DNA of 59,172 nt. Origin: an uncultured Alphaproteobacteria bacterium (GTDB taxonomy: Bacteria; Pseudomonadota; Alphaproteobacteria; CAAGCB01; CAG-977). The position numbers and the translations under genes are program-made. The notes below the pieces were generated by a model, which was given only the letters and a program-made list of their open reading frames with translations, ran no database searches and was not told the origin of the DNA. The stretch lies in contig CALXOZ010000013.1 in NCBI GenBank assembly GCA_944390195.1, positions 1 to 59,172 of the forward strand, written 5' to 3'. Position 1 is the stretch's first letter. Each line of letters starts with the position of its first letter. Positions 39,332 to 48,588 of the stretch are shown here, one piece after another.

Positions 39332-40660
39332 ATGCATTGGTATGAAATGAAACTTTCCGGCAAAGGGCGGACAAGTTCTTCTGTGGGGCGGGTGTGCCGT
39401 CCGGAACGTATAGCCGATGTGCCTAAGTATTTGGAACAGGTCGGCAAGAACGGGATTGTTGTTCGCGGTTCAGCCAGCAGTTACGCTGATCAAACTTTAA
39501 ATACAGACGGTGCCGTAATGATGTCGGGGCGTTTGGACTGTATCCGTTCATTTAATGAAGAAACAGGCGAATTGATTTGTGAACCCGGAGTAACATTGGA
39601 AACAATTACCCGCTTGTATGGGGCGCGGGGATTTATGTTGGCAACGGCGAGCGGATCGGGACAACATACGCTGGGCGGAGCTTTGGGCGCAAATATTGTC
39701 GGACAAAACGGTCATAAGAAGACATCTTTGGCTTGTTCGGTCAACTGGATGGATGTTGTTTTGGCGGATGGTCAGATCGTGCGCGCAAGCCTTGAAGAAA
39801 ATGAAGACCTGTTTCGTTCCGTTATCGGTGGTCAAGGGATGATCGGGATTATTGTTTTGGTGTCGATCAATCTGTTGAAAAAGCCGGCGTTGAATGTTGT
39901 TGTTGAAAAACGCCGGATAACCAATTTAAACGATCTGATTGAATCGCTTCGAACAGTTCGTAAATCGTGTGATTTTTGTTCTGTATGGGTAGATACATCG
40001 GCACGATCGGATGCCATCGGGCGCGGGATTTTAAAAACAGCCTCTTTTACAAGAGATCCGGTTGACGTTTCTTTGTTTTCCGTTCCAAAACGCCGTTTTT
40101 CTTTGCCGCAATTTGTTTTGCACATGGCGTCATGGTCATTTTTTCAAAACCTGCGCTATCATTTTTTTTCGGATACAAAAACAGTTACCAGTTATGAAGA
40201 ATTTTTGTATCCGTCGGATTATGTGCGTGTATTTTCTTCAAAAGGCGTCTATCAACTCCAGATTTCTTTTTCAGAAGCGGAAGGACCTCAAGCGCTTCGC
40301 CGGATTTTAACGGAACTGTCCCAATCCAGAATTACAGCGTGTCGTGCTGTTTTGGTTTTAACAAAAAAAGACCGGTTGTCCTATTTGGGATTCGCTTTGC
40401 ACGGATACACGATCAGCTTGGATTTCATCCGGCGAAAGGGGTTGGAAGACTTTTTAAAACATTTGATCACTATAGCCACGGAACATAACGGACGGGTGTC
40501 TTTGCAGGACGATGCCTTGTTGGAACCCCGTAACTTGATCATGATGTATGATTGTTGGGACAAGTTTGTCAAAGTACGGGAAACCCTTGATCCGCAAAAG
40601 AAATTTGATTCGGATTTTGCGCGCCGTTTATTTGTCAGGGAGAAAAAAAATGAACAATAA
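39332..40660 (+). CDS. FAD-binding DprE1-like oxidase
   Basis: A 442-residue FAD oxidoreductase of the vanillyl-alcohol/DprE1 family: GVxxRGSASSYADQTLN, LICEPGVTLETITRLYG, ATASGSGQHTLGGALGANIVGQNGHKK, and a DprE1-like C-terminus (KFVKVRETLDPQKKFDSDFARR). DprE1 oxidises decaprenylphosphoryl-ribose at C2' in the mycobacterial route to decaprenylphosphoryl-arabinose. Residues at positions matching active-site Lys418 of the mycobacterial enzyme (AKDS) read QDDA, so catalysis may differ. It overlaps the next gene, a DprE2-like SDR, by 11 bp, giving the usual DprE1-DprE2 order. Substrate and product here are not known. Confidence 0.85.
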   Translation: MHWYEMKLSGKGRTSSSVGRVCRPERIADVPKYLEQVGKNGIVVRGSASSYADQTLNTDGAVMMSGRLDCIRSFNEETGELICEPGVTLETITRLYGARGFMLATASGSGQHTLGGALGANIVGQNGHKKTSLACSVNWMDVVLADGQIVRASLEENEDLFRSVIGGQGMIGIIVLVSINLLKKPALNVVVEKRRITNLNDLIESLRTVRKSCDFCSVWVDTSARSDAIGRGILKTASFTRDPVDVSLFSVPKRRFSLPQFVLHMASWSFFQNLRYHFFSDTKTVTSYEEFLYPSDYVRVFSSKGVYQLQISFSEAEGPQALRRILTELSQSRITACRAVLVLTKKDRLSYLGFALHGYTISLDFIRRKGLEDFLKHLITIATEHNGRVSLQDDALLEPRNLIMMYDCWDKFVKVRETLDPQKKFDSDFARRLFVREKKNEQ

Positions 40661-41396
40661 ACGTACATGGCTTGTTTTGGGCGCAAATAATATATTAGCC
40701 CGCGCTTTCGCCCGTCAGGCGGCAAGTGCGGGAAATGACGTTATTTTGCTTGGCAAAGCCGGAGATGATCTGGAATTGTTGGTGAACGACATATGTGCCC
40801 GTTATCCGGATGTTGATGTTTTAAGTGTCGAATTGGATACGTCGAATTTGGATTCTTTTGTAAAAACCGTCGAAGAGTGTGAAGAAAAAGCTAAAAATAT
40901 TATTAGTGTTTTTTCTGCACTGGAAACCGCGTATGCACAAAAAGAATGCGGCAAAGACTTGGGAAAGATAAAAAATATGTTTCAGATTAATTATTTTTCA
41001 CAAGTTTATTTTCTTTCGGCAATAGCGCCAGTATTGCAAAAACAGTTGTGCGGGGAAATCATTGTCTTGGGGTCGACAGCCGGAGAGTACGGAATGCCGG
41101 ATAATTATGCCTTCGGTTCTACAAAAGCGGCATTGCATATTTGGTTGCAAGGTTTTCAAGCGCAAATGGCTCAGTATCATGTCAATGTAACGACTGTTAA
41201 AGCCGATGACTGGGATACGGTGGGGGAAAGAAAATATTCATTTTACCAAAAGCCCTTGGATCCAGAAGCTTGTGCCCGATCATGCCTGCATTATGCTCAA
41301 AAAAAGGTGAAAGTTTGTTATTTCCCATGGTATACGGCACTGACGGTTCCTTTAAGGCGTTATGCTCCATATCTTTACCGGTCATTGAAAAAATAA
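40650..41396 (+). CDS. DprE2-like short-chain dehydrogenase with degraded active site
   Basis: A 248-residue SDR-fold protein related to DprE2 (its segment GSTAGEYGMPDNYAFGSTKAAL aligns with [22 protein letters not shown] of the mycobacterial protein, shown here only in part). Where the catalytic Tyr of YxxxK should be there is Phe (FGSTK). The nucleotide-binding GxxxGxG is altered to GANNILA. So it may not reduce a substrate in the normal way. I start at MNNKRTW, whose ATG lies inside the end of the DprE1-like gene; the coding frame continues upstream but without family match. It is followed 16 bp later by a large fusion protein. Confidence 0.8.
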   Translation: MNNKRTWLVLGANNILARAFARQAASAGNDVILLGKAGDDLELLVNDICARYPDVDVLSVELDTSNLDSFVKTVEECEEKAKNIISVFSALETAYAQKECGKDLGKIKNMFQINYFSQVYFLSAIAPVLQKQLCGEIIVLGSTAGEYGMPDNYAFGSTKAALHIWLQGFQAQMAQYHVNVTTVKADDWDTVGERKYSFYQKPLDPEACARSCLHYAQKKVKVCYFPWYTALTVPLRRYAPYLYRSLKK

Positions 41397-41412: not shown

Positions 41413-43287
41413 ATGGCACGAAGAAATTCTTTTTTAGACGCTTCTTTATTGCGGATTAATGACGGGACGCCAGTCAAGGTTACTTTTCTGGAAACGTCCG
41501 GAAAAGGTCATTTTATGGGATTTTATACAATCGAAGGCGGATTGTTCAAAGAAATCAGAACATTGTTTCCTGATGTCGGTGTCGGTACGTTAATCCCCAA
41601 TGTCAGTTCCGTTTTTTTAGGAAGCCGTTTGAATGGCAAATTGCCGGTTTTTTTTGTCATTGAAAACGGTTTTGAATTAAATAGAGACGCTTTTTGGTTT
41701 AATGATGCCGTCAACGGCAGAAACGGTTTTTGGAAATTTTTAACCCCACCTGAGGAAGACGGATTGCTTCCCGTATTGGAAGAAGGTGAAATCGTTTGGC
41801 AACGTTTAAACGGGGAAACGGTTTCTTCGGCTCGCGAAGCAAGTCTGCAGACGCATAATCCTGTTTTAGTATGGCAATCTGATGCGGGACAGGTTTTTGT
41901 TGTCAAGGGAAAAATCTTTCACAGTTGCGGTTTTGGCTTATATCCTCAATTAAATCCGGATACAAGGCATCGTTTTTTATTAATGCCACAGGAAGAAACG
42001 AATTCTGTCATATTGAATTTTATCACTGATGATTCTTGGACATCAATCCAGCGCCCTGAAATATCCATCAATCTTCAAATCGGTCAAAGTAATTTTATTT
42101 CTTTAACCAAAAACCGTATTATTGATATTGCGTTGCCTGTTCCAGATGCTTCCGGTTCGATTTTTTCGGCAAGCATTGAAGTTTTTCAAGAACTTGACAG
42201 TGTTGTTGTACTGGATTGTTTTGAAAATCAGCCGAAAGTCTTTATGGCGGGAACGGATTTTTTAATCGAAGTTCCTAAAAAAGGATGTCTGTTCATAACC
42301 GCACAGGCAAGTCCCTCCGCTTATGAAATATTGCTTTCAAACGTAAAAGTCAGAACGAAAACTTCTGTCTTTGCAAAAAGTAAGGTAAGAGTTACCTTTA
42401 AAACCGAAAAAGGCGAGATTTTAAAAACGGGTGAAATCGACATATTTCCTGAAAAAAATCAGATATCTCCGTCTTTCAGCGTTAATTCCATTTTATCTTC
42501 CCCTTCTTGCGGCAAAATGCTTTCAGATATTTTGCCTTCTTTGAATGCCAGTGAAAAACAAGACGATTTCCCTTCGTTTATAAAACAATCCCTGCCATCA
42601 TCTTCGGCTGTGCCGGTTTTAAAAAGTGATTTCGGGAATAAAACGGCATTGATTACTGGCGGAGCCAACAGGTCTGGAAAAGAAATTTCGCATGCCTTAG
42701 CTTCTCGTGGCTATAATGTTATCGTCCATTGTCACGATTCCGTTGCCGAAGCCATGTATCTGGTTGAAGAGCTTCGTCAAACATATCATATAAAAACGGC
42801 TTACTTCAGAGCCGATTTTAATTCATATGAGGAAACCGCCGATTTGTTGGATGCCGTTTCCAGAATATACGGTTCAATTGATTTGCTTGTTTGTTTGGCA
42901 AATACCCGTTCATCAGAAAATAACGCGCAGGGATGGGAGACAAATATGTCTGTAAATTTGCGCGCTCCGTTTGTTTTGGTAAACGCTTTCGCCCGTTGTT
43001 TGCCGAAAGGACGAAGAGGAAATGTCATTTGTGTTTTCAAAGAGGCTCCAGATGAATTTTCCCCTTATGCTTTGAGCTGTTTGGCTGTAAGGGATCTGAC
43101 ATTGTTGGCGGCGCGCCGTTTTAAAGATCAAATGCGGGTGAACGGTTTATCTTTGGCGTATGAAAAGTATAATGAAAATGTAGAACGTCAATTGGTCAAT
43201 ACAGTTTGTCTCTTAGCGCAGACAACTGTTTTTGACGGTCAGATTTTTACTCTTGGTGATTCCATTTCGGAAGAACAAGACGTCTAG
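41413..43287 (+). CDS. Fusion of a DUF4114-like domain and a degraded SDR domain
   Basis: A 624-residue protein. Residues about 20-215 resemble DUF4114: GFYTIEGGLFKEIRTLFPDV, a VSSVFLGS turn, VFFVIENGF, then IFHSCGFGL with LNPDTRHRFLL and a degraded acidic end. DUF4114 normally occurs in secreted calcium-rich adhesins, yet no signal peptide is seen. Residues 215-400 are beta-rich and unrecognised. Residues from about 410 to 624 are an SDR (TALITGGANRSGKEISHALASRGYNV), close to the pteridine-reductase type, in which the Lys of YxxxK is replaced by Cys (YALSC). Spacing after the DprE2-like gene is 16 bp. The function is unknown; I found no precedent for this fusion. Confidence 0.75.
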   Translation: MARRNSFLDASLLRINDGTPVKVTFLETSGKGHFMGFYTIEGGLFKEIRTLFPDVGVGTLIPNVSSVFLGSRLNGKLPVFFVIENGFELNRDAFWFNDAVNGRNGFWKFLTPPEEDGLLPVLEEGEIVWQRLNGETVSSAREASLQTHNPVLVWQSDAGQVFVVKGKIFHSCGFGLYPQLNPDTRHRFLLMPQEETNSVILNFITDDSWTSIQRPEISINLQIGQSNFISLTKNRIIDIALPVPDASGSIFSASIEVFQELDSVVVLDCFENQPKVFMAGTDFLIEVPKKGCLFITAQASPSAYEILLSNVKVRTKTSVFAKSKVRVTFKTEKGEILKTGEIDIFPEKNQISPSFSVNSILSSPSCGKMLSDILPSLNASEKQDDFPSFIKQSLPSSSAVPVLKSDFGNKTALITGGANRSGKEISHALASRGYNVIVHCHDSVAEAMYLVEELRQTYHIKTAYFRADFNSYEETADLLDAVSRIYGSIDLLVCLANTRSSENNAQGWETNMSVNLRAPFVLVNAFARCLPKGRRGNVICVFKEAPDEFSPYALSCLAVRDLTLLAARRFKDQMRVNGLSLAYEKYNENVERQLVNTVCLLAQTTVFDGQIFTLGDSISEEQDV

Positions 43288-43602
43288 AATATAATTTTTT
43301 TATTTTTTTAATGCAAATGAGCAATCATTTGCATTAAATTTTTTTGGAAACGGGAGTCGATTAATGAAAAAAATAAAATCAAGAAAAAGAAATGAAAAAA
43401 AATAAAAATAATACTTGATTATAAAAAATATAGTAAAATCAATAACTTGATATATTTGCCTAAAAAATAGGCAAGTTAAGAAAAAACAAGGCAAACTCTG
43501 ATCCCGCGGCGGTTGAAAATGTTGTTTTCACAGACTTATCCACAAATTTGGGGAAAACTTGCAAAATTTGTGTGAAAACTATTAAAAAGGTTTAAAATCA
43601 AT
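43288..43602. other. AT-rich intergenic region with a terminator and one DnaA box
   Basis: About 315 bp. It holds the terminator described separately, then a long A/T-rich stretch (43340-43490), and a perfect DnaA box TTATCCACA at 43536-43544. One box is not enough to propose an origin. Confidence 0.5.
43309..43347 (+). terminator. Terminator after the DUF4114-SDR gene
   Basis: Stem TAATGCAAATGA / TCATTTGCATTA (12 bp) with loop GCAA, followed by AATTTTTTT. Confidence 0.88.
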
Positions 43603-45474
43603 ATGATAGATAGAAAAATGCTGGATTTTAAAGGTTTGGACAATGGCGAATCTGCACAAAGCTTGAAAGGAGCGCCTTATGTTTCAAATCAGTTACAGTT
43701 TTTTCCTCAACGTCCGGGTGTTTATCGTATGTTGGACGAAAACGGAAAAGTGTTATATGTCGGCAAAGCGAAAAATTTACGCCGCCGTTTGGAAAATTAT
43801 GCTCATCCGGAACGGACGTGTATTCGCATTCAACGTATGATTTCACAAATTCAACGCATAGAGATCATAGAAACAACTACGGAATCAGAAGCTTTTTTAT
43901 TGGAAAACGACCTGATCAAGCGTTTGAAGCCATATTATAACATTCTTTTGAAAGACGATAAGACGTTCCCTCATATTTTGGTAACGACAAAAGATGAATG
44001 GCCTCAGTTGTTAAAACATCGCGGTTCCAGAAAACGGAAAGGTGAATATTTCGGTCCTTTTGCTTCGGCTTCAGCCGTTAATGAAACATTGATGGTTTTG
44101 CAAAAAGCTTTTTTGTTAAGAAGTTGTACGGATAATGTTTTTTATCATCGCACACGCCCTTGTTTAATGCATCAGATTAAACGTTGTAGCGCTCCATGCG
44201 CCGGAATGATCAGTCATGAAGACTATAAAGCCTTGGTTGATGAAGCTTGCGCTTTTATGCACAATAAAAGCACAAAAGTTCAATCGGATCTATCTTTAAA
44301 GATGGAACAAGCCAGTGCGGAAATGCGTTATGAGGAAGCCGCCGTATTGCGTGACAGAATTCGTGCATTGAACAGGATTCAAAGTCAGAGCAGTGATTTG
44401 GACGGTATGGCGGATTGTGATGTCATCGGGATCTATACGGATAAAGAACAAAGTTGTATTCAGGTTTTTTTCTATCGTGGATCACGCAGTTGCGGGAATT
44501 ATGCTTCTTTTCCGACACAGACGGCGGGACGGACGGATGCGGATATTTTAGAAGCTTTTATTGGTCAGTTTTATATGACGCATTCTATTCCAAAAGAGAT
44601 ATTGTTGTCGGTCGAGCTTGCAGAACAGGAGGTTGTGGCGCAGGCTTTGAGCATCAAGGCCGGTGCGACCGTTCGGATATCGGATAAGACGCGGGGAAAC
44701 CGGAAACGTTTGGTCGAGCGTTCCGTTATGAATGCGAAAGAAGCTTTGATGCGAAAACGCATGGAAGGAGCTGCCAGAGCGGAATTGTTGGAACAATTGC
44801 AAGATCTTTTGGGTGTAAATATTCCGATCAGACGGATAGAGACATATGATAACAGTCATATACAAGGAACGAGTGCGGTCGGTGCGATGGTTGTTGCAAC
44901 GCCGGAGGGGTTTGATAAAAAGTCATACAGGAAGTTTAACATTTCTTGGGACACCTTTACACCCGGTGATGATTTCGGGATGATGCGAGAAGTTTTAACA
45001 CGTCGATTTAAAAGAGGTTTATCTGAAAGGAATCTGCCTGATGTTATTTTTATCGACGGCGGCGAGATACAATTGCGTGTTGCTTTGGACGTTTTGCATA
45101 CGTTAAATGTTCCTGATGTCATTGCTATCGGTGTTGCCAAAGGTGTCGATAGAAATGCTGGCAAGGAAACTTTGTATTTTGCCGATCGTGCGCCGTTGAA
45201 TTTGGATTTTGACAATCCGTTGTTGCATTATATCCAGCGTTTGCGTGATGAAGCGCATCGCTTTGCCATTGGAACGCATCGTATCAAGCGTCGTAATGAT
45301 ACATTGGTATCCGCTTTGGATAATATCAAGGGGATCGGGGCAAAACGGAAAAAAGCTTTATTGCAACATTTTGGTTCTGTTCATGCAATCAAAGCGGTCA
45401 GTGTCGAGGAAATAGCCAAGGTTGAAGGGATCAGCCCAGTATTGGCACAACATATTTTTGATGAATTAAAATAA
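43603..45474 (+). CDS. uvrC: Excinuclease ABC subunit C
   Basis: A 623-residue protein with the GIY-YIG N-terminal nuclease (GVYRMLDENGKVLYVGKAKN, residues about 38-57), a UVR motif region (MRYEEAAVLRDRIRALNRIQ), the RNase-H-like C-terminal nuclease (ETYDNSHIQGTSAVGAMVV) and a helix-hairpin-helix tail (IKGIGAKRKKALLQHFGS). UvrC cuts damaged DNA 3' and 5' of the lesion with UvrAB. Length is typical. The gene stands alone, preceded by an AT-rich region and convergent with the hydrogenase-type gene. Confidence 0.97.
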   Translation: MIDRKMLDFKGLDNGESAQSLKGAPYVSNQLQFFPQRPGVYRMLDENGKVLYVGKAKNLRRRLENYAHPERTCIRIQRMISQIQRIEIIETTTESEAFLLENDLIKRLKPYYNILLKDDKTFPHILVTTKDEWPQLLKHRGSRKRKGEYFGPFASASAVNETLMVLQKAFLLRSCTDNVFYHRTRPCLMHQIKRCSAPCAGMISHEDYKALVDEACAFMHNKSTKVQSDLSLKMEQASAEMRYEEAAVLRDRIRALNRIQSQSSDLDGMADCDVIGIYTDKEQSCIQVFFYRGSRSCGNYASFPTQTAGRTDADILEAFIGQFYMTHSIPKEILLSVELAEQEVVAQALSIKAGATVRISDKTRGNRKRLVERSVMNAKEALMRKRMEGAARAELLEQLQDLLGVNIPIRRIETYDNSHIQGTSAVGAMVVATPEGFDKKSYRKFNISWDTFTPGDDFGMMREVLTRRFKRGLSERNLPDVIFIDGGEIQLRVALDVLHTLNVPDVIAIGVAKGVDRNAGKETLYFADRAPLNLDFDNPLLHYIQRLRDEAHRFAIGTHRIKRRNDTLVSALDNIKGIGAKRKKALLQHFGSVHAIKAVSVEEIAKVEGISPVLAQHIFDELK

Positions 45475-45652: not shown

Positions 45653-47113
45653 TTATTGATCCTGATCGTCTTGCAAGGCAGAAATGGGGTTGGCTTGCCC
45701 TGCGAATTTTTCAACGTCCTTGACTGTTTTTTTCGCGCTGCACACAACACCCGCACCGGCGATACAACCCCCTTCACACGTCATCATTTCAATCAGATTT
45801 CCGGGATTTTTTCCTTTCGGATACATTTTAAACAACCGTAACATAGCCGGTTTTATGCCGTTTATACAGACCGGTTTCACTTCAACGCGATCATTAACAA
45901 CCGCCTTGACTGCTCCTGCGACGCCTCCCGTTACGGCAAAACCGCGTCCTTGAGCGGATGGCAAACGGTCGAATACAGCTGGAGCGCATTCTTGAACCTT
46001 AATGTTCGAAGCTTCAAATAAAGCGTCAAGCTCTTCAAAAGTCATAACGAAGTCGATTAACGGATCATTAATGCCCTCATAACGTTTTGCAACGCACGGT
46101 CCGATAAAGACTGTAACGGCTTCGGGATCTTTTTTGACCAATTCCGCCGTATAGTGCATTGGGGTCGCGGTGTCAGAAACAAAGCGGGTCAGCTCTGGGA
46201 CATGGCGTTTTACGGTTTCGATGTACCCCGGACAACATGATGTTGTCATGAAGGCATCTCCTTTTTCCATACGTTCTATGAATTCTTTGGCTTCGTTGCG
46301 TGTTGTGATGTCCGCACCGACGGCGACCTCGATAACACCGGCAAAGCCAACGGCTTTTAAAGCGGAAACGACCTGTTCAACGGAACCTTGAAATTGCCCT
46401 GCAATAGCAGGGGCGATCATGGCGATCGTTTTTTTCTTTTCGGTCAACATGGTTTTAAGAATGTCAATTATCTGGCTTCGTTCCATGACGGCACCGAACG
46501 GACAGGCGCGCATACACTGTCCGCAAGAAACACATTTATCAAAGTCGATTTCGGCTCGTCCCGCCGAACCGCGGTGAATGGCTCCGACCGGACAAGCGCT
46601 TTCACAAGGGACGACCCTCTTCATGATAGCTTGATACGGGCAAGCTTCTTTGCATTTTCCACAACTTTTGCATTTATCGGGATTAATGCGAGCCGGTCCT
46701 TTTGTAACGTCGATGGCTTCGAACGGGCAAGCCAAAGCGCATGAACGCGCCAGACAACTTTGGCAAAGCTCTGTAACGACATAGCGGGAAGTCACACATT
46801 CATTGCAGGCAATGTCAAGAACCGTCATGACGGGAGCCGTTGGCTTGTTGCGAGCCGGAGCCCGTCTGGCATATTCGGACAAAGGCGTAACTTCGTCATC
46901 TTCTTCGACGCGAAAGCCTAAGGCTGCCAGACAACGCGTTCTTAATATGGCTCGTTCTTTGTAAATGCAACAACGATAAGCCGCTTGACGTGCCGGCAAG
47001 ATGTCAACGGGAATTTTATCGACATCTTGCAACAACGAGTTTTTCAGGAAAGAACGAACCAACCTGATTAAAATTTCTTTGCGGAAATACCTTGCGTTAT
47101 CTCTGATTTCCAT
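45653..47113 (-). CDS. [FeFe]-hydrogenase-type iron-sulfur protein, group B-like
   Basis: A 486-residue protein rich in cysteine. Residues about 100-220 hold ferredoxin-like Cys motifs (CKSCGKCKEACP and CVSCGQCMRACP among others). The catalytic part has the three H-cluster signatures: TTSCCPGYIE, IGPCVAKRYE and MMTCEGGCIAGAG, each with its ligand cysteines. The TSCCP and PCxAK forms match the group B monomeric [FeFe] hydrogenases, which make or consume H2 or act as sensors; activity depends on the HydE/F/G maturases, which are not in this window. I start at MEIRDNARYF, with AGGAG upstream, because the earlier ATG overlaps the stop of the preceding gene. It follows the thioredoxin-CcdA-like gene on the same strand by 17 bp. 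A weaker alternative is an H-cluster-like protein without hydrogenase activity. Confidence 0.85.
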   Translation of the reverse strand: MEIRDNARYFRKEILIRLVRSFLKNSLLQDVDKIPVDILPARQAAYRCCIYKERAILRTRCLAALGFRVEEDDEVTPLSEYARRAPARNKPTAPVMTVLDIACNECVTSRYVVTELCQSCLARSCALACPFEAIDVTKGPARINPDKCKSCGKCKEACPYQAIMKRVVPCESACPVGAIHRGSAGRAEIDFDKCVSCGQCMRACPFGAVMERSQIIDILKTMLTEKKKTIAMIAPAIAGQFQGSVEQVVSALKAVGFAGVIEVAVGADITTRNEAKEFIERMEKGDAFMTTSCCPGYIETVKRHVPELTRFVSDTATPMHYTAELVKKDPEAVTVFIGPCVAKRYEGINDPLIDFVMTFEELDALFEASNIKVQECAPAVFDRLPSAQGRGFAVTGGVAGAVKAVVNDRVEVKPVCINGIKPAMLRLFKMYPKGKNPGNLIEMMTCEGGCIAGAGVVCSAKKTVKDVEKFAGQANPISALQDDQDQ

Positions 47114-47130
47114 AGAAGAAGCTCCTTTTA

Positions 47131-48396
47131 TCAAGCCAGCCAATCAGGATGGAACAGCATCAGGAAACCTAGAATAAACAAAATGACGCCGCCGATCAGT
47201 TTGCACCAAACCATATATTTGTCTCCGGCATATTTGTTGACTGCAAACGCTGCCAAAGAAAACACGATTAAATCGTCAAGCATGAAAAAGAAGACATAAA
47301 CGGTGATATACCAATAGTGCATAAAGACGGACAGATGCGAAAAGGCCAGAACGCTGGTAAAGATTGCGGGCAATGCGGCAGAGCAGACAAATTCAATTCC
47401 GTTGACAACAATAGCCAAGGCAAAAACGCCCAATAACGTTCCCCAGCTAAGCGGTTTTTCTGCCAAGGTTTTGATGCGATTTTTAATTTTATTGCGTCCT
47501 TCCGCCGTTGTTACCTTACAGGTGGGACCTTCGAAGAAAGAGCGTAAGGATTCAAACCCCGTATATAAAGCGATGGCTCCGATACCGACGGTCAGAATGC
47601 GCATATATCCGATCAATTTGAACAGATTGATCCAACCGGCCATTAAAGCGAAATAAAACAAAGCGGATGCTGCGACAAAAGAGCCGACGATAACGAAGGT
47701 TTTACGTTTGTCTTGCAGATCTACGATGACGGAAATCATAAAGACAAGCACCCACATGGCGCAGGGATTAAATCCGTCGACCAATCCCAGAACAACGGCA
47801 AGGAACGGGATGGATTTTTGGAAAACGTCAATTTCTCCGAAATAGGGCAGATCGACGATACGGCTGGGTTTAGGCGGTTCTTTTCCCAAAGCTCGGGCAA
47901 TATCTTCGGCGGAAATTTCTCCGAACTCTTCCGGAGCCTCGCAGTCTCCGCCTTCTCCGTAAGCGCAAGACGCATGGGTTTTATTTTCCGTCAATTCGCC
48001 TTTCATCAAAGAACGGTAGGAATCTGCGTTAAAACCGGTAACGTACATATCTCCGGATCTTAAAACGGGAACGCCTTTGATGTTGTTTTTTTCCGCGAAT
48101 TCCAAAAAGATGTTACGTTGTTCCGCGGAAATTGATGACAATTCCAACTTTTGAATGATTTTTGCCGGAAATTCGGCTTGAAGTTCCGTATCAACGAATT
48201 TAATTGCTTCGGCGCAATGAGGACAACCGTTTGTATGGTACAGTTGAACGCTTCCCGTGCTGTCCGCCGGCATCAAATCATTGCCGGAAGATTTAAAAAA
48301 ACCGACCCATACAAATAAAGCAAGGCAGATAAACAAAGCCGTTGTACGAACTTTATCTTCTTTTAAATCGGCAATAAAGTTTTTAATAAAATTCAT
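47131..48396 (-). CDS. Thioredoxin-like and CcdA/DsbD-like membrane protein
   Basis: A 421-residue inner-membrane protein: one N-terminal helix (about 19-36), then a thioredoxin/glutaredoxin-type domain with CPHC at residues 58-61 (VQLYHTNGCPHCAEA), a soluble linker with two more cysteines (ASCAYGEGGDCEAPEE), and six to seven helices with the DsbD/CcdA-type motifs DGFNPCAMWVLVF and EFVCSAALPAIF. Such proteins pass electrons across the membrane from cytosolic thioredoxin to periplasmic thiols. I start at MNFIKNF, with AAGGAG upstream. The cysteines are all kept. It sits directly upstream of the hydrogenase-type gene, which suggests a shared electron route, though this is inference. Confidence 0.82.
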   Translation of the reverse strand: MNFIKNFIADLKEDKVRTTALFICLALFVWVGFFKSSGNDLMPADSTGSVQLYHTNGCPHCAEAIKFVDTELQAEFPAKIIQKLELSSISAEQRNIFLEFAEKNNIKGVPVLRSGDMYVTGFNADSYRSLMKGELTENKTHASCAYGEGGDCEAPEEFGEISAEDIARALGKEPPKPSRIVDLPYFGEIDVFQKSIPFLAVVLGLVDGFNPCAMWVLVFMISVIVDLQDKRKTFVIVGSFVAASALFYFALMAGWINLFKLIGYMRILTVGIGAIALYTGFESLRSFFEGPTCKVTTAEGRNKIKNRIKTLAEKPLSWGTLLGVFALAIVVNGIEFVCSAALPAIFTSVLAFSHLSVFMHYWYITVYVFFFMLDDLIVFSLAAFAVNKYAGDKYMVWCKLIGGVILFILGFLMLFHPDWLA

Positions 48397-48588
48397 TTGA
48401 GGCTCCTTATATTTCAAGATCAAGCGGAATGTCTGAAAGACTATACCAGCATTCCTTTTTTTTGAATAGATTTTTTCCGGAAGCTTGTTTGTGAAATGAT
48501 TTTTTATGATATGATGTAAACTTGTTATCGTGTTTTAAACCGTGTCTTTTCGGCATAGACTGAAATTAATTTAACGGGAGAATAAATT

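Follow-up and report, generated by a model that had tools for sequence, protein, structure and literature searches.

The window analysed here, a stretch of 59,172 nucleotides from an uncultured Alphaproteobacteria bacterium, contains a gene in which a module typical of secreted adhesins appears to be joined to a cytosolic enzyme fold, raising the question of whether such a protein is genuine, from what it was assembled, and what it might still do. An earlier note, made from the DNA letters, had proposed a DUF4114-like domain fused to a degraded SDR of the pteridine-reductase type, encoded 16 nt behind DprE1/E2-like genes. The ORF coordinates bear out this position, the single ORF (624 residues, zero internal stops) starting 16 nt 3' of the stop of the DprE2-like gene. 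The features of the locus are the following:

41413..43287, + strand: fusion ORF, composed of a DUF4114-derived module, an Ig/cadherin-like domain, a linker and a FolM-type pseudo-SDR; kept in 15 genomes
41413..42087, + strand: residues 1-225, DUF4114-derived, BclA/LecB-like beta-sandwich lacking the Ca2+/sugar motif GGDxDxND (from hhalign, the A2 profile of the N-terminal half, AF2 and VIA)
42109..42435, + strand: residues 233-341, Ig/cadherin-like beta-sandwich whose homologue in the proteins L049 and L053 is the domain that follows DUF4114
42445..42633, + strand: residues 345-407, disordered and fast-evolving linker (pLDDT about 25-45, dN/dS 0.17-0.43)
42634..43260, + strand: residues 408-616, FolM/PRK09134-type SDR with its Rossmann half retained and its catalytic residues lost
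43307..43338, + strand: likely terminator, a 14-pair hairpin followed by a T-run, 20 nt past the fusion stop
40548..41396, + strand: DprE2-like SDR gene, adjoining the fusion only in the window's genus and its sister genus; as listed, this ORF begins inside the DprE1-like gene
39332..40660, + strand: DprE1-like FAD oxidoreductase gene, adjoining the fusion only in the same two genera and lying on another contig in G008
43603..45474, + strand: uvrC, conserved neighbour in fusion genomes and adjoining a stand-alone SDR in many relatives

The fusion is carried as an open, full-length frame by 15 of 15 genome assemblies from two families of gut Alphaproteobacteria, namely all 12 genomes examined of the order and three members of a second family, f22 (G032, G163 and G260). 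Of the matching named records, those whose titles give a source are MAGs of Alphaproteobacteria from gut, rumen and faeces. In what follows, g1 denotes the window's genus, g2 its sister genus, and G008 a member of a further genus in their family. Since the frame is open in all 15 assemblies, the fusion is not a sequencing error, and the possibility that relatives would keep the halves as separate genes divided by a stop, which the earlier note had itself raised, fails.

The origin of the N-terminal half is less evident from routine domain searches. Pfam returned no match of any family in this half of the window protein, which lies below the DUF4114 (PF13448) gathering score of 27 bits, and no DUF4114 match for 11 members of the family even at E<=10. 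Thus, the DUF4114 assignment did not stand at the level of Pfam detection, but it did stand when profiles were compared with one another: hhalign of the fusion N-terminal halves against six secreted-type DUF4114 proteins gave 99.9%, E 1.2e-31 over 300 columns, a span that covers both the DUF4114 module and the following Ig/cadherin-like domain, as in L049 and L053. In the reverse direction, a profile built from DUF4114 proteins alone found the fusion gene as its sole match in the window's genome (E 8e-9). Profile-profile comparison is decisive for the homology of this half to DUF4114. A search of 385 genomes of the class with the A2 profile matched 16 genomes, the best match outside the fusions (E 3.9e-16) being a 750-residue protein of G122 that contains DUF4114 (PF13448, 6e-14) and is located near type I secretion-like ABC transporters; weaker matches were mostly DUF4114 proteins with RTX repeats. 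The two top viral-library matches likewise carry DUF4114 annotation (E 8e-5 and 1e-4). The PDB sequence search gave nothing useful for either the N-half profile or the G122 DUF4114 homologue. In G122, L078 (G122:C230) is a large protein of DUF4114 and cadherin-like make-up that has neither RTX repeats nor an SDR; its gene neighbours encode ABC transporters, a CheB-like protein and a response regulator.

The AlphaFold (AF2) model reaches a pLDDT of 90 for the DUF4114-derived module, and its residues 7-226 resemble the lectins BclA, LecB, RS-IIL and CV-IIL with VIA Z values of 5.7-7.3, which alone are not decisive because a Z under 8 may reflect a common arrangement only. For residues 233-341, beta-sandwich proteins including B4GALNT1 reach equally high VIA Z values. 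These resemblances are in line with the literature, insofar as PMC9109919 connects DUF4114 with Ca2+ binding and with mannose lectins of the BclA/LecB type and names BclA and LecB as DUF4114-bearing lectins, while PMC11934332 gives BclA as a structural match and describes experiments with recombinant protein in favour of mannose binding by the AcMBP domain that contains DUF4114. The window protein thus shares whole-module profile homology, including the Ig/cadherin-like domain, with the DUF4114 of RTX adhesins, PilY1.1 and the Acanthamoeba AcMBP; unlike these, it has fallen below Pfam detection, shows no evident export signal and has a cytosolic enzyme fold attached, and the calcium motif GGDxDxND is absent from it as from all the fusion proteins aligned.

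Regarding location, the N-terminus of the window protein, read by eye, contains no hydrophobic stretch fit for a signal peptide, in agreement with what had been noted before. With one type I ATPase model, no PrtD-type ATPase scored above cut-off in any of the 15 fusion genomes, while such ATPases above cut-off occur in G122. Loss of the calcium motif, together with these two observations, makes a cytosolic protein most likely.

The C-terminal half behaves as the proposed pteridine-reductase-type SDR. Residues 410-580 match adh_short (E 1.1e-20), and the top NCBIfam model is PRK09134 (2.5e-30), at 109 bits and below the cut-off of 281 bits, which is passed by the SDR halves of G008 (294.7 bits) and G032 (286 bits) and approached from below by that of G260 (249 bits). 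The closest PDB sequence to the G008 SDR is Brucella FolM (5tgd, 4e-52), and phmmer of the PDB with the window SDR returned no match at E<=1e-12. The SDR fold is confidently modelled and fits 5tgd with TMt up to 0.78.

The replacement of Lys by Cys in YxxxK was read correctly from the sequence (Y552-ALS-C556, with Y552 retained), and the damage to the active site proved to be wider: the window protein also carries Lys for D543 and Cys for N494 (in NNA(G/S)), and its SDR lacks the substrate loop that would separate beta6 from the final helix. N494 is missing in all seven g1 members and K556 in all eleven members of g1 and g2, with C, N, T or L taking the place of the latter. What is kept in the window SDR is H439, D468 and TGGxxxxG (TGGANRSG), a nucleotide loop of the TGxxxGxG type. 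On the contrary, Asp-Tyr-Lys is retained in G008 and the three f22 genomes, so that four genomes have an intact SDR and eleven a dead one. The g2 proteins go further, their SDR half being much reduced and the glycine motif lost in most members.

Among known systems, FolM/PRK09134 (Brucella 5tgd and 5bt9, protozoan PTR1) provides the best sequence matches and some of the best fold matches, and the fusion gene is placed upstream of uvrC like the FolM-like SDR genes of many relatives; the window protein differs in lacking N494, D543 and K556 and in its N-terminal extension of 400 residues. Catalytically inactive SDRs (pseudoenzymes) exist in general, and the window protein likewise keeps the Rossmann fold without the catalytic Lys, the lectin-type fusion being its distinctive trait. 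Judged by its sequence, the protein is derived from both sources, yet it is neither a canonical DUF4114 member nor a FolM enzyme.

The genomic context indicates where the two sources met. Wherever the gene neighbourhood of the fusion was read, uvrC comes next, and in about 20 unfused genomes (SDR and uvrC match coordinates being compared by eye) an SDR match precedes uvrC, on its strand, by about 0.4-1.8 kb; seven loci read directly agree. The SDR at this place in many unfused relatives is FolM-like and stands alone. This arrangement in relatives shows that the SDR was the resident and that the adhesin-type module joined it there. The gene on the other side varies, being uvrB in f22, a short ORF without assignment in G008, and the DprE1/E2-like pair in g1 and g2 and only in those two genera.

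Taking together the computed domains, the origin at the uvrC locus, the loss of the motif and of catalytic residues, and the retention of both halves in g1, the reading that we hold with about even confidence is that a uvrC-linked FolM-type SDR acquired an N-terminal DUF4114 and Ig/cadherin-like module and became, in g1, a cytosolic pseudo-reductase scaffold. The ancestor would have been a homologue of NADPH-dependent pteridine/dihydrofolate reductases, to whose N-terminus the module of the secreted-adhesin kind was joined, most likely in one event in the ancestor of the two families. From the adhesin module the calcium motif would have vanished along with any evident signal for export, and the catalytic Lys of the SDR would have disappeared on the branch leading to g1 and g2. 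Brucella FolM forms a typical SDR tetramer in crystals (PMC8725004). For the present role we infer, by analogy, that the SDR core may oligomerise as FolM does, displaying the beta-domains for protein contacts, and that the adenosine-phosphate side of NADP(H) may still bind with no reduction of a substrate. The reduction of the SDR and loss of the glycine motif in g2 speak against nucleotide binding as a universal role and fit continuing decay; the retained function could also reside in the N-terminal half alone.

This decay leads to the first rival explanation, an unlikely one, in which the gene is a non-functional remnant near uvrC whose SDR half decays neutrally while the ORF persists by chance or through use of the N-terminal half. 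It would account for the lost active site and the much degraded SDR of g2, and for a reversal in identities: between G008 and f22 the SDR is the better conserved half (41-45% against 24-25% for the N-terminal half), while in cross-genus comparisons involving g2 its identity drops below that of the N-terminal half. The fusion also outpaces UvrC: in g1, NG86 dN/dS (calculable pairs) is 0.11-0.27 in the SDR half, 0.11-0.28 in the N-terminal half and 0.17-0.43 in the linker, against 0.04-0.07 for UvrC. Between G008 and G007, the SDR half gives 0.52. All of these are rough values because dS approaches saturation throughout and is infinite for some pairs. Nonetheless, both halves remain well below 1 within g1, which suggests that purifying selection still acts on them; the frame is open at full length in every one of the 15 genomes; and, in the confidently modelled SDR fold, the nucleotide-binding part (beta1-alphaC) is 65-75% identical across g1, compared with 41-42% for alphaF and the C-terminus.

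A second and rather doubtful alternative follows from the upstream genes: the dead SDR would be a regulatory pseudo-subunit that, in association with the DprE2-like SDR, itself active, recruits the lectin-like module to an enzyme of polyprenyl-phospho-sugars. The hairpin between the fusion and uvrC is a likely terminator, so that in g1 a DprE unit appears to end with the fusion, 16 nt behind the DprE2-like gene, with uvrC probably transcribed separately. Moreover, since G008 branches outside g1 and g2 in the UvrC tree (98/95), the DprE adjacency and the loss of the catalytic Lys fall on the same branch. This is one coincidence and not proof of a link, two events on a single branch being weak evidence. 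The upstream gene is a different one elsewhere, no DprE1 homologue was found in the f22 fusion genomes, that of G008 lies on a separate contig from the fusion, and the DprE1/E2 assignments themselves score below the NCBIfam cut-offs (225 of 500 and 61 of 250 bits). The association with DprE1/E2 is real, yet it is not an ancestral one and is confined to the two genera with a dead SDR. The earlier suggestion that the fusion serves the same sugar-lipid pathway is accordingly weakened, uvrC being the conserved neighbour, although the shared branch keeps the idea alive. Its fuller form, in which a lectin-type module from the secreted world is re-used inside the cell by a pseudo-reductase regulating the DprE1/E2-like polyprenyl-phospho-sugar pathway, perhaps through NADP(H) sensing and pairing with the DprE2-like SDR, appears more doubtful still. 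As a separate observation, the DprE1-like match G010:C37:28007-29317 has one in-frame TAA.

That the protein is an active reductase with an altered mechanism or a new substrate, for which the lysine of YxxxK is dispensable, is highly improbable: Tyr552 and TGGxxxxG are kept in the window protein, but Lys556 and Asn494 are gone throughout g1, and the window protein also lacks Asp543 and the loop preceding the last helix. Moreover, residue 556 is variable, and alphaF and the C-terminus evolve fastest, a pattern to be expected if catalysis had been lost, not altered. Secretion of the fusion, with its DUF4114-derived module acting extracellularly as in adhesins, is hardly credible despite the homology to modules of RTX-type and type I-associated proteins, given the missing hydrophobic N-terminal stretch, RTX repeats and Ca2+ motif, the lack of a PrtD-type ATPase above cut-off in any fusion genome with the one type I model searched, and the C-terminal cytosolic enzyme fold.

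The second Ig/cadherin-like domain, the calcium motif loss and the intact SDRs of sister lineages were absent from the earlier note. The locus also has a wider meaning. Intact and broken versions in sister genera show the passage from enzyme to pseudoenzyme after a domain fusion, and supply a natural series for pseudo-SDR function, intact in G008 and f22, dead in g1 and much reduced in g2; in addition, the calcium motif and, apparently, export are dispensable for the persistence of a DUF4114-type fold. Both folds were already known, and what is likely to be new is their fusion: in agreement with its having been called undescribed, no title or abstract among the 12 open-access papers returned for DUF4114 concerned an SDR fusion, which makes the absence of an earlier report likely, if unproven. 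The literature search also returned no paper naming SDR, uvrC and pgsA together.

Folate genes were considered as well, given the FolM type of the SDR. FolA did not turn up in any of the four genomes that retain an intact SDR, in keeping with a FolM-type role in these. It was not found either in G006, G007, G010 and G011, whose SDRs are dead, so that the coupling between FolA and the SDR is not strict, and replacement by a DHFR was rejected as the cause of SDR loss. ThyX occurs in 12 of the 15 fusion genomes (for example G000:C12:30750-31382) and is thus usual among them; G009 alone has ThyA with an adjoining FolA instead (G009:C6:47047-48397), and neither thymidylate synthase was found in G004 and G010. 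Most g1 genomes contain only a weak DHFR-family match (DHFR_1), exemplified by the divergent protein L115 (G000:C4:96959-97393), which is possibly RibD-C-like rather than a folate reductase.

Further downstream in the window, the translation of 45653-47143 (- strand) displays ferredoxin-type Cys clusters together with TSCCPGY and MTCEGGC, and is likely an [FeFe]-hydrogenase, which fits an anaerobic gut bacterium. It is adjoined by an ORF at 47131-48423 (- strand), in which a thioredoxin/glutaredoxin-like segment is followed by several hydrophobic segments.
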